Below are positions 2,173-32,999 of a stretch of 33,194 nucleotides of DNA, piece by piece. Each line of letters opens with the position of its first letter. Position 1 is the stretch's first letter. The stretch covers positions 1 through 33,194 of the forward strand of contig JAURIG010000010.1 in assembly GCA_030832905.1 (NCBI GenBank), given 5' to 3'. The position numbers and the translations under genes are program-made. Below the pieces are notes generated by a model that saw nothing but the letters and a program-made list of their open reading frames with translations, did no database searches and was not told where the DNA came from. This stretch comes from Bacteroidota bacterium. GTDB taxonomy: Bacteria > Bacteroidota > Bacteroidia > NS11-12g > UBA955.

Positions 2173-2206
2173 CAAAAAAAAACCTTACAGCTAGTGTAAG
2201 GTTTTT
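2173..2206 (-). terminator. Intrinsic terminator of the DUF1573 gene at 2227
   Basis: Eight-base arms accttaca (2182-2189) and tgtaaggt (2195-2202) enclose a five-base loop. A-runs and T-runs extend the stem on both sides. Read on the minus strand, the hairpin ends in a nine-base U tract (2173-2181), which suits termination of the minus-strand gene that ends at 2227. The T run at 2202-2206 could give weak bidirectional function. Confidence 0.85.
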
Positions 2207-2226: not shown

Positions 2227-2652
2227 TTAATCGCCAATCTGCACAGGAGATTTAGGTTTAGATTGCTCTGTTACAATATTGCCTTTGATGTACAGAATAG
2301 ATTGACCAACATTGGTCGCCACTGTAATGTTTTTAGCAAAGTTGCCATTTTTGCCAGAAGAGTCAAAAATAGCAGTAACAGAACCTTGAGCACCTGGAGC
2401 AACAGGCTCTTTGCTGAAGTTTGGAACAGTGCAACCGCAAGAAGCCGTTGCATTAGAAATCACGATAGGCGTAGTGCCTTTGTTGGTAAAGGTAAAGGTG
2501 TATTTTGCCTTAGTACCTTGAACGATTTCTCCAAAGTCATGCGTGGTTTTCTTCCATTCAATTTCTTTAGGCTCATCCGTCAAAGATGGGTTTGAAAAAG
2601 ATTGAAAGCCAAGAGCGATGAAACTCAATAAATAGGTAAAAATTGTTGTCAT
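2227..2652 (-). CDS. DUF1573 domain exported protein, paralogue 4 of the array
   Basis: A 141-residue protein with a hydrophobic N-terminal export signal (residues 1-20) and one DUF1573 domain. Diagnostic segments are THDFGEIVQG (residues 37-46), the SCGCT motif with C72 and C74, a PGAQGS turn and a final IKGNI strand. DUF1573 domains have an Ig-like strand pattern and are abundant in Bacteroidota; no biochemical function is established. The invariant CGC pair could bind metal or form a disulfide (inference). The three neighbouring minus-strand genes encode the same domain. It ends in its own strong terminator at 2173-2206. A weak AATATTTG box at 2680-2687 could serve as promoter, otherwise it is reached by read-through from 3045. 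Confidence 0.9.
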   Translation of the reverse strand: MTTIFTYLLSFIALGFQSFSNPSLTDEPKEIEWKKTTHDFGEIVQGTKAKYTFTFTNKGTTPIVISNATASCGCTVPNFSKEPVAPGAQGSVTAIFDSSGKNGNFAKNITVATNVGQSILYIKGNIVTEQSKPKSPVQIGD

Positions 2653-2697
2653 AAGCAGGTTAACTCGATGGAATAGTTACAAATATTATGCCGAAAA

Positions 2698-3045
2698 TTA
2701 ATTTTTAACATCAGCCTTCAGCCAAACTTCAAAAAGCCCTAAATTACTATAGACAACAATAGATTTTTGCTGTATGCCTTTTTTCTGAGGTTTGAAGCGC
2801 AGCTTTAATTTGAAAGTGTCTCCAACGGCAATTAGTTTATTGGACTCAAGGGTACTTATACAACCGCAACCACTTTGAATATTCTCTATTTCCCAAGTTT
2901 GGTCACTTTTATTGACTGCCCAAATTTGAGTGTTAACGGTGCTGTCATAGGCAATTGAGCCTAATTCAATAGTTTGAGTGGACCACTGAATATTGACCAT
3001 ATTCAAGCTAAGGATAAATGGTATAAAACAACGTGCTATAGTCAT
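2698..3045 (-). CDS. Short divergent DUF1573 domain protein, paralogue 3
   Basis: A 115-residue protein and the most divergent member of the four-gene array. A short hydrophobic leader (residues 4-18) is followed almost at once by the domain: IELGSIAYDS replaces the usual HDFG segment, and the cysteine pair survives as SGCGCIS (C60, C62). The C-terminal strands (KSIVVYSNLGLFEVWLKADV) match the end of the other copies. Function is unknown. The ATG lies immediately after the U tract of the terminator that closes the 4208-3098 transcript, so expression must come from read-through or from a promoter I cannot identify. Missing the DFG segment, it may be a degenerating or specialised copy. Confidence 0.82.
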   Translation of the reverse strand: MTIARCFIPFILSLNMVNIQWSTQTIELGSIAYDSTVNTQIWAVNKSDQTWEIENIQSGCGCISTLESNKLIAVGDTFKLKLRFKPQKKGIQQKSIVVYSNLGLFEVWLKADVKN

Positions 3046-3075
3046 AAAAAAAGCGCTGCAGCAAGCTGCAACGCT
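3046..3075 (-). terminator. Terminator hairpin abutting the start codon of the next paralogue
   Basis: Arms agcgctgcag (3052-3061) and ctgcaacgct (3066-3075) pair with one mismatch around a four-base loop. On the minus strand this is followed by a run of seven U (3046-3052), and the ATG of the next gene follows directly at 3045. The geometry fits an intrinsic terminator for the 3098 gene that also sits in the leader of the 2698-3045 gene. Confidence 0.8.
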
Positions 3076-3097
3076 GTATACATAAAAATTGATGAAA

Positions 3098-3604
3098 CTA
3101 TTTGGCTTTTAATTTAATGGTATTGCCATTTGGCGCAACTGGATCAACAGCTGTTTTGGCTACCACTTCACATTTGAATTTGAATTCATGAACGCCACCA
3201 TTGGTTGTGATTTTAACCGTTTTGTCGTTCACGCCCATTTTGCCGTTGGTGTTAAAACCAACTTTAATGTTAGAGCTTTGTCCTGGCATGATTGGTTCTT
3301 TAGAATAAGTAGGCGTGGTACAACCGCATTGCACTTCGTGGCTCATGATGATTACTGGCTCTTTGCCTACATTAGTGATAACGAAAATGGTTTCTACTTG
3401 ATCGCCTTCAGTCGCTTTGCCAAAATCGTGAAAAGTTTTGTCAAATTTAACATCGTAGGCTTTGTCTGATAAGACAACTTTTGGAGCTTCTACTTTTGTT
3501 GCTTTTACGGCTTTCTTTGGTTTTTTAGCGGCTTGGTCTACTTGAAAAGCTTCCATGCTCAATACTAAGAGCGCTGTAAAGCTAAATAATGCTAGTTTTT
3601 TCAT
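3098..3604 (-). CDS. DUF1573 domain exported protein, paralogue 2
   Basis: A 168-residue protein. The N-terminus is a clear Sec signal (MKKLALFSFTALLVLSM), followed by a lysine-rich linker (residues ~26-45) and one DUF1573 domain: TFHDFGKATEG (57-67), CGCTTP with C93 and C95, an MPGQSS turn and a FKCEV closing strand. The family has no proven activity; the export signal places it in the periplasm or outer envelope. It lies 19 bases downstream of the 194-residue paralogue and is probably cotranscribed with it, with a strong terminator just after its stop (3046-3075). Its CGC segment closely resembles that of the neighbour (QCGCTTPTY versus SCGCTTPNW), which suggests tandem duplication. Confidence 0.9.
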   Translation of the reverse strand: MKKLALFSFTALLVLSMEAFQVDQAAKKPKKAVKATKVEAPKVVLSDKAYDVKFDKTFHDFGKATEGDQVETIFVITNVGKEPVIIMSHEVQCGCTTPTYSKEPIMPGQSSNIKVGFNTNGKMGVNDKTVKITTNGGVHEFKFKCEVVAKTAVDPVAPNGNTIKLKAK

Positions 3605-3623
3605 ATTGTAAAGGTCTGTTAAT

Positions 3624-4208
3624 TTATTTGTTTGTTGGTGTTACTTTAGGACGGTCGCCTTCCATAATGGCTTTTGTCTTAGTGTCTTTTACTTTTTTAG
3701 CAGTTTTGCTTTTTGAAGTGCTTTTAGCTTTAGCTTCAACTTTGTTTTTAGAAGCATCAATTGAATCTTGAGTATGTTTCCATTGGTCAAAAGCATTTGG
3801 CACTAAAACCATGCCTGAAATATTCAATGGGGTAACACCTTCTGAAGTGGTTACAGTAACATTCTTAGAAAAGTAACCTTCTGATGCAGCATTGTATGTA
3901 GCAGTAATTTGAGCGGTTTCGCCTGGTTTGTATACGCCACCTTTCCAGTTTGGAGTAGTACAACCACAAGAAGCTTGCACATTGATCAATGAAATGTCTC
4001 TATTGCCAACATTTTTAAATTCGAAGGTGTAAGAGGCCGGTACGTTTTGCTTCACATTGCCAAAATCATGAGCTGTGACTTTAAATTGTACAAATTCAGG
4101 GTTTAGGCTGGGCTGAGCAACCATAGTAGGCACTTGGCCTGGGGTTTCTTGAGCCATGATCGGAAATACGACCAAGCTGAGCAGCGATGAAAGTAAAATG
4201 TTTTTCAT
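3624..4208 (-). CDS. DUF1573 domain exported protein, paralogue 1 (promoter-proximal)
   Basis: A 194-residue protein, the longest and first-transcribed of the array. It has a signal peptide ending near MAQ (residues 1-20), a short linker, a DUF1573 domain (AHDFGNVKQN at 46-55; SCGCTTPN with C81 and C83; YKPGETAQ turn; LNISG strand) and a basic, Ser/Lys-rich C-terminal tail of about 45 residues that is probably disordered. The tail is unique to this copy and could bind an acidic polymer or envelope surface (inference). The ATG lies seven bases after a CATTTTTG -7 box with a TTTG -33 box 19 bases away, inside an 18-bp palindrome. That arrangement suggests regulated, near-leaderless transcription of this gene and the next. 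Confidence 0.9.
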   Translation of the reverse strand: MKNILLSSLLSLVVFPIMAQETPGQVPTMVAQPSLNPEFVQFKVTAHDFGNVKQNVPASYTFEFKNVGNRDISLINVQASCGCTTPNWKGGVYKPGETAQITATYNAASEGYFSKNVTVTTSEGVTPLNISGMVLVPNAFDQWKHTQDSIDASKNKVEAKAKSTSKSKTAKKVKDTKTKAIMEGDRPKVTPTNK

Positions 4209-4315: not shown

Positions 4316-5086
4316 GTGAAATTCTCAGTCAAAGCCAAGAAACACCTCGGACAACATTTTTTGAATGATCCATCTGTGGCTCAAGATGTGGCTTTGTTGT
4401 TTACTAAACACCCTCAGTCACTGCCGGTGCTCGAAATTGGCCCTGGTACTGGGGTCTTAACAGAACATTTGCTTCAATATTATCCTGCTGTTTCAGCTAT
4501 TGAAATTGATACCGAATCAGTGGCCTATTTGACCACACATTTTGTACCCAAAGGCTTGCACTTAACAGAAGGCGATTTTTTAAAGCATAGTTTTGACCTG
4601 AGTCAAATTGCCAATGATATGCTTATAATTGGGAATTTTCCTTACAATATTAGCTCTCAAATTGTTTTTAAAATTTTAGACAATATTGAACATGTTCAAG
4701 GGTTTGGTGGGATGTTCCAAAAAGAAGTGGCAGAAAGATTGGTCGCCAAAGAAGGGTCTAAAACCTATGGCATATTGAGCGTTTTACTTAATGCTTTTTA
4801 TGATTGTGAGTATGCCTTTACAGTAGGACCTGAAAAATTCACTCCGCCACCTAAAGTGTTTACTGGCGTTATTAAATGTGTTCGAAAGGCCAATACAGTT
4901 TTGCCATGTTCTAAGACTTTGTTCTTTGAAGTGGTGAAGGCAGCTTTTAACCAACGCCGTAAAACATTGCGCAATGCTTTACACAAATTTAATCTGCAAG
5001 AAAGCCATGAATTTGCTAAATTGCGTGCTGAACAACTCAGCGTTCAAGATTTTATTAAACTGACTCAATTCATTGAACAACAATGA
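4316..5086 (+). CDS. rsmA: 16S rRNA dimethyladenosine transferase RsmA
   Basis: RsmA (KsgA) uses S-adenosylmethionine to dimethylate the two adjacent adenosines in the 3'-terminal hairpin of 16S rRNA, a late step of small-subunit assembly. The 256-residue length is normal. Visible motifs are KKHLGQHFLND (8-18), the SAM-binding EIGPGTG (40-46), an acidic EID after the second strand, and the catalytic NFPY at 107-110. The small C-terminal helical domain with FNQRRKTLRNAL is also present. The start is a GTG at 4316, placed by the conserved N-terminal motif and an exact -7 box four bases upstream. It is the first gene of an rsmA-mgtE-capA-like operon; its stop overlaps the mgtE start by four bases (ATGA), suggesting translational coupling. 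Confidence 0.97.
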   Translation: MKFSVKAKKHLGQHFLNDPSVAQDVALLFTKHPQSLPVLEIGPGTGVLTEHLLQYYPAVSAIEIDTESVAYLTTHFVPKGLHLTEGDFLKHSFDLSQIANDMLIIGNFPYNISSQIVFKILDNIEHVQGFGGMFQKEVAERLVAKEGSKTYGILSVLLNAFYDCEYAFTVGPEKFTPPPKVFTGVIKCVRKANTVLPCSKTLFFEVVKAAFNQRRKTLRNALHKFNLQESHEFAKLRAEQLSVQDFIKLTQFIEQQ

Positions 5087-32926: not shown

Positions 32927-32999
32927 GGTACCTTAGCTCAGTTGGTAGAGCAAAGGACTGAAAATCCTTGTGTCCCTGGTTCGATTCCTGGAGGTACCA
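32927..32999 (+). tRNA. tRNA-Phe (GAA)
   Basis: A 73-nt tRNA. The acceptor stem is GGTACCT with AGGTACC and discriminator A at 32999. The D arm is GCTC-AGTTGGTA-GAGC, and the anticodon arm is AAGGA-CTGAAAA-TCCTT with anticodon GAA at 32960-32962. The T arm CCTGG-TTCGATT-CCTGG has one U-U mismatch in the middle of the stem, unusual for a tRNA. The 3' CCA is not encoded (CCT follows), so it must be added. It is a single-gene unit with its own promoter and terminator. Confidence 0.97.

Follow-up and report, generated by a model that had tools for sequence, protein, structure and literature searches.

DUF1573 domains occur in every one of the 59 relatives' genomes studied here (59 of 59), yet the literature searches made gave nothing on their function: the excerpts obtained for DUF1573/PF07610 contained no redox measurement and nothing on function beyond listing. 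An array of four consecutive DUF1573 genes, each encoding an intact Cys-Gly-Cys (CGC) motif, raises the question of whether such paralogues form a set with distinct jobs or are local duplicates, and of what their shared motif does. The array was analysed in a 33,194-nucleotide stretch of DNA (the window), which is contig 11 of a Bacteroidota assembly of 1.95 Mb that is 85% complete.

Open reading frames, Pfam scores and CGC positions all agree with the preliminary description of four minus-strand genes (2227-4208) with one DUF1573 domain each and the CGC intact (Table 1). In a Pfam scan at E<=0.001, g1 to g4 scored 91.4, 94.9, 64.1 and 113.1 bits against DUF1573 (PF07610), all four above the curated cut-off of 26.1 bits, and the only other family listed was HYDIN_VesB_CFA65-like_Ig; a conserved CGC is not a stated Pfam criterion for DUF1573. 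The linkers were also as described, with a basic Lys-rich C-terminal tail in g1, a Lys-rich N-terminal linker in g2 and almost none in g3, and g4 was found to carry a short conserved KPKSPVQIGD-like C-terminal tail that had been overlooked. Export, proposed for all four products, was evident by eye for g1 and g2 and less evident for g3 and g4, the N-termini of which have no clear basic start. Pairwise identity among the cores of g1 to g4 is only 16-39%. At E<=0.001 the source genome yields nine DUF1573 matches, of which the array accounts for four; those outside the window lie in a triple-match protein, a likely lipoprotein encoded between nusB and yajC, and two further ORFs.

Table 1. Features of the DUF1573 array and its surroundings (window coordinates).
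Feature	Position	Strand	Description
Intrinsic terminator after g4	2178..2206	minus	predicted
g4 (slot 4)	2227..2652	minus	141 aa; DUF1573, CGC C72-C74, conserved C-terminal peptide KPKSPVQIGD
Sigma-54-like element TTCGGCATAATATTTG	2680..2695	minus	between g3 and g4; conserved above flanks
g3 (slot 3)	2698..3045	minus	115 aa; minimal DUF1573 protein, CGC C60-C62, evolves faster than the other three
Intrinsic terminator between g2 and g3	3052..3075	minus	T-run ends at g3 start codon
g2 (slot 2)	3098..3604	minus	168 aa; Lys-rich N-terminal linker, DUF1573, CGC C93-C95
g1 (slot 1)	3624..4208	minus	194 aa; DUF1573, CGC C81-C83, Lys-rich C-terminal tail
Sigma-54-like element TTGGTACGGTTTTTGAA	4241..4257	minus	5' of g1; conserved above flanks
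ksgA (rsmA)	4316..5086	plus	divergent neighbour, synteny anchor; TIGR00755, 240 bits

The gene ksgA was located in 56 of the 59 genomes, and its surroundings were read in the 34 other same-family genomes in which it was found. The array adjoins ksgA in the same order and orientation in all 16 readable genus loci, the window's own included; the genus genome G003, without a ksgA match, lies outside this count. All four genes are present in 14 of these loci, the other two being G001, which has no slot 3 gene, and G006, whose contig ends after the second gene. In other genera of the family, a run of three or four DUF1573 genes lies beside ksgA in 7 of 19 loci (G017, G018, G022, G025, G027, G030 and G035), and runs away from ksgA were seen in G023 and G026. 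In a tree of 100 of the 107 domain rows (the seven omitted came from multi-domain or weak long ORFs), each genus slot formed a single clade, with support of 100, 99, 98 and 93 for slots 1 to 4 and clade sizes of 16, 16, 14 and 15 rows; the gene in third place in G001 had been assigned to slot 4 by sequence prior to the tree. Recent duplication is rejected in view of the one clade per slot and the conserved order.

The appendages of the four proteins follow the same division. The basic C-terminal tail of slot 1 (48-64 residues) is kept in 15 of 16 genus rows, the Lys-rich N-terminal linker of slot 2 in 16/16 and the KPKSPVQIGD-like end of slot 4 in 15/15, the last being seen also in several family members, and slot 3 has almost no extension in genus rows. 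The slot 1 exception is G005 (L014:2331-2894), in which an apparent frameshift shortens the tail and the DNA beyond still codes for a Lys-rich stretch. The preliminary description had allowed that the array would be just local duplication if homologues proved single and scattered; within the genus they are kept as an ordered array of four separate orthologous groups. The conserved order, with an orthologous group of its own at each position, supports a set whose members have distinct jobs. For the genus, the array is shown to be an old, fixed module of four non-redundant, specialised DUF1573 paralogues. That the four products may act together, as was suggested at first, is plausible.

AlphaFold2 single-chain models of g4 (pLDDT 92.2) and g3 (pLDDT 96.6) have the same order of eight strands, and that of g4 is a confident all-beta PapD-like sandwich. 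Comparison of the g4 model by Foldseek and VIA-align gave HYDIN (2e6j), a Porphyromonas gingivalis protein of unknown function (2qsv), VesB, CEP192, the VAP-A MSP domain, ASH domains and pilus chaperones such as FimC and Caf1M; CsgC and DsbD were not among the matches listed. A PDB sequence search with g4 alone gave no significant match, and one with an alignment gave HYDIN and FAP74. The DUF1573 fold here is predicted to be PapD/HYDIN-like, with the CGC placed by the models at the loop just before the fifth strand, i.e. between strands four and five. A CxC motif is present in 100 of the 103 domain rows counted, almost all of which come from loci fetched by synteny (the census covers 103 of the 107 rows, with four from other source-genome loci omitted), and is kept even in slot 3. 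Only an Asn and the two Cys are invariant in a 73-row alignment, which combines g1 to g4 with 69 of the 80 relatives selected, some of them chosen by the pattern ASCGCT, and this invariance is somewhat flattered because the 11 relatives left out are partly divergent.

Selenocysteine (Sec) in a UGC/UxC-type motif usually marks redox chemistry. DUF1573 (pfam07610) appears, in the portions obtained of three published selenoprotein lists, with a UxC/UGC motif that places Sec at the first Cys (PMC2398784, PMC9312934, PMC13188914), and a thiol-redox role of the CGC is favoured because such versions of the family exist. In the window all four motifs read Cys-Gly-Cys (table 11), with no in-frame TGA, and g1 to g4 scored 58.2, 28.4, 54.8 and 35.0 bits against the NCBIfam OS_HP2 (seleno)protein model NF041425, none of the four passing its cut-off of 100. 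According to extracts from two further papers, the Ig-like protein CsgC has an invariant CxC with a measured potential of -139 mV (PMC3173608), and peptides containing CGC act as mimics of disulfide isomerase (PMC4316792). In view of the Sec versions, the CsgC precedent and this mimicry, the mechanism preferred for the CGC domains is an envelope thiol-disulfide exchange, proposed with moderate confidence. A disulfide or redox role shared by the four CGC motifs gains support from the Sec versions of the family.

It is also conceivable, though rather unlikely, that the products are a binding set, in which the domains act as PapD/MSP-like adaptors or chaperones for envelope proteins, whose peptides or strands they bind, while the CGC does no more than stabilise a loop by its disulfide and the tails provide specificity. 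The closest folds among the matches listed (HYDIN, VesB, CEP192, VAP-A MSP, FimC and Caf1M) point in this direction, and we know of no redox role for HYDIN, MSP, ASH or pilus chaperone domains. Paralogue-specific tails would fit partner binding as well, but Sec at the first motif position in relatives, as given in the parts of the lists obtained, is hard to reconcile with a structural bond, and both Cys are retained even in the fast-evolving slot 3.

The array is also divided by an intrinsic terminator. The terminator between slots 2 and 3 was found by script in 13 of 15 genomes, the script having missed G005 and G016, of which G016 was found separately as the fourteenth; the terminator after slot 4 is present in 15/15 genus genomes. 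After slot 1 a terminator was found in 0 of 16 genomes, and after slot 3 in 1 of 14, with a dubious stem. The array would comprise at least two transcription segments because of the strong terminator between g2 and g3. Five sigma-70-type sites were found between 2100 and 4400, none of them on the minus strand, with 5.7 expected by shuffling. The only RNA element found by Rfam in the window is a tRNA at 32927-32999.

A GGYAY-N5-TTG element precedes gene 1 in 16/16 and gene 4 in 15/15 genus loci, its information content being 1.6-1.7 bits per column, compared with 0.6-0.7 for the flanking columns. The slot 1 element is TTGGTAC-like followed by TTTTTGAA and the slot 4 element is TTTCGGCAC-like with ATTTG after it; in genus members TTTGAA or TTTGTT forms the second half. 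Compared with the -24/-12 promoter of sigma-54, for which the published consensus in the excerpt obtained is TGGCAC-N5-7-TTGCT (PMC12316311), the array element is alike in having GG, ten bases and then G. The GG and the first G of GC stand at the correct spacing in 31/31 genus elements, from which the C of GC is absent, and the full canonical TTGC is present in several relatives, e.g. TTTGGTATGGTAATTGCTT and TTTGGCACAGACATTGCTT. RpoN is encoded in the source genome and in 55 of the 59 relatives' genomes. Of the canonical TTGGYAYN5TTGC, the source genome has just two copies.

Enrichment of the element was assessed with a loose pattern (gap of 5-7, later narrowed to 5-6) and a strict one, which was fixed after the genus and family elements were known, so that only a set of 80 Bacteroidota loci was unseen, eight of which were dropped as duplicates of genomes already used. 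Outside the genus, the element precedes 9 of 12 array first genes, against 15/225 (loose) or 3/225 (strict) other genes of the same stretches. At the unseen loci it precedes 10/20 (loose) or 9/20 (strict) array first genes, against 11/394 and 6/394 other genes, an enrichment that for the strict pattern has a Fisher p of about 8e-10 (1e-7 without two near-copies); the remaining 11 of the 20 array first genes have no strict element. Counts at the unseen loci were 0/30 for later array genes, 5/33 for single genes and 1/18 (loose) or 0/18 (strict) for triple-domain genes. The three of these 12 arrays outside the genus without the element are those of G018 and G025, with RpoN present, and of G035, with no RpoN match. 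The G035 genome (L043) is about 100% complete, and G025, which has RpoN, is its genus mate.

The element is likely to be a sigma-54 promoter. Against this stand the missing C in the genus, the rarity of the canonical form in the source genome, the arrays of G018 and G025 that lack the element despite RpoN, and the unseen array first genes with no strict element. Less probably, and in our view unlikely, it is some other site, e.g. an unusual primary-sigma promoter or an operator. Primary-sigma promoters of Bacteroidota end in TTTG, and the genus elements have TTTGAA or TTTGTT in place of TTGC as their second half; against this, sigma-70-type promoters need a longer gap than the roughly five bases that separate the halves, several relatives carry canonical boxes matching the published sigma-54 consensus, and RpoN is nearly universal in the relatives set. 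The element and its enrichment before the first genes of DUF1573 arrays are new here. The only other exact slot 1-type copy in the source genome, TTGGCACAGAATTTGAA at G000:C175:6126-6142 (L132, about 3127-3143, minus), sits just upstream of an M23 peptidase/LysM gene, hinting at a wider envelope regulon. The initial observation of four tandem paralogues stands, and in stronger form than first read: the set is conserved and kept in order, and its members have specialised separately and apparently have promoters of their own.

The 80 loci, picked from public Bacteroidota genomes by the CGC-type pattern ASCGCT, show DUF1573 runs of one (52 loci), two (8), three (13) and four (7), six of the seven four-gene runs apparently coming from genomes already in the family count. 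The four-gene array is lineage-specific, because 52 of the 80 loci show a run of one and 28 a run of two to four. A scan of 97 of the 103 listed flanking proteins (80-600 aa only, and with four of the triple-domain loci only) gave 13 YajC and 6 NusB. Because these are among the flanking genes, single-copy DUF1573 is linked with export machinery, from which the array is separate. Single DUF1573 genes lie directly before yajC in named Bacteroidota (L102:4833-5635 and similar loci). In the source genome, a single DUF1573 gene with a lipobox-like LSAC lies between nusB and yajC (L135:2022-2504, minus).

The possibility that the array forms an operon with the reductase and radical-SAM genes downstream of it was weighed and rejected. 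Both adjoin the array in 9 of the 15 other genus loci fetched (G001, G002, G007, G009, G010, G012, G013, G015 and G016), but different genes occupy this position in G004, G005, G011 and G014, and the loci of G006 and G008 end too early. These genes are regarded as neighbours and not as parts of the array, because they are replaced in four loci and a terminator follows g4 in 15/15 genus genomes. In the window they are a flavin/NAD reductase-like gene and one of the radical SAM/SPASM type (421-2158), beyond which lies a plus-strand ORF (2-424) that is truncated where the window begins and has a CHU_C type IX secretion signal domain at its end.

The remaining two explanations fare worse. Vicinal cysteines can bind soft metals, and the CGC might serve metal handling by binding a soft metal such as Cu(I) or Zn(II), either by itself or in a site that several domains share. 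An iron-dependent stimulon table does include a DUF1573 gene of Bacteroides thetaiotaomicron, in the part of that source obtained (PMC10434189), but the metal site, which had been raised at first alongside a disulfide, is very unlikely: there is no conserved third metal ligand, because the 73 rows have no invariant residues other than one Asn and the two Cys, and the only metal transporter gene near the array, mgtE, is encoded behind ksgA on the opposite strand and remains linked to ksgA. Local duplication leaving redundant or decaying copies with no joint role is highly improbable and already disfavoured, for although tandem runs are common in the family (28/80 loci) and slot 3 evolves fast (mean identity 0.47 across 14 genomes) and is absent in G001, each slot is one genus-wide clade with its own tail, slots 1, 2 and 4 retain 73-74% identity (0.73-0.74 across the same genomes), and the regulatory elements are more conserved than their flanks.

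The preferred explanation as a whole, a fixed module of four specialised and separately promoted paralogues with a thiol-redox role for the CGC, is offered tentatively, as possible but short of probable. Under it, g1 and g2 would be read from a sigma-54-type promoter and halted by the terminator that follows, elements and terminators being recognised by conservation and their sigma-54 identity being what we infer, and g4 would have a sigma-54-type promoter and terminator of its own. Transcription of g3 might come via leakage through the first terminator or from an unseen promoter. The distinct tails (basic C-terminal tail, basic N-terminal linker, none, and KPKSPVQIGD) would guide the same reactive domain to different partners. 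A bolder and unlikely version is a sigma-54-controlled, four-member periplasmic thiol system built on PapD/HYDIN-like Ig domains, which would act on freshly exported proteins, as the yajC neighbourhood might suggest, with the tails docking the CGC domain to different partners or to each other as a relay; in that case DUF1573 would add a very widespread class to the redox-active Ig folds, besides CsgC and the DsbD N-domain.

The fixed set of four paralogues without redundancy, the probable promoter class, the neighbourhood of secretion genes and the Sec clue together give a concrete handle on a family of unknown function. If the redox reading is true, many Bacteroidota would carry a disulfide system that thioredoxin-fold searches miss.

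Among known systems, CsgC and the N-terminal domain of DsbD are periplasmic beta sandwiches of the Ig type in which two cysteines stand close together, as CxC in CsgC according to the extract obtained (PMC3173608), and the array products may resemble them in this. However, g1 to g4 have no Pfam match (E<=0.001) to either and the fold matches listed for g4 are PapD/HYDIN-like, and the CGC lies between the fourth and fifth model strands here, whereas the CxC of CsgC joins the BC loop to strand C. PapD-like pilus chaperones have two Ig-type domains per protein, and g1 to g4 have one each. OS_HP2 (NF041425) matches the same domain stretch of g1 to g4 and its UxC/UGC motif is shaped like CGC, but all four score below its cut-off and have Cys at both motif positions. 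The NusB-DUF1573-YajC neighbourhood is alike in containing a single DUF1573 gene, also in the source genome, where the product is a likely lipoprotein, but the array genes lie elsewhere, have no lipobox by eye and fall in other clades. As to DUF1573 (PF07610) itself, g1 to g4 are above its cut-off with the CGC present, and the family here takes the form of four ordered, separately conserved paralogues with promoter-like elements.
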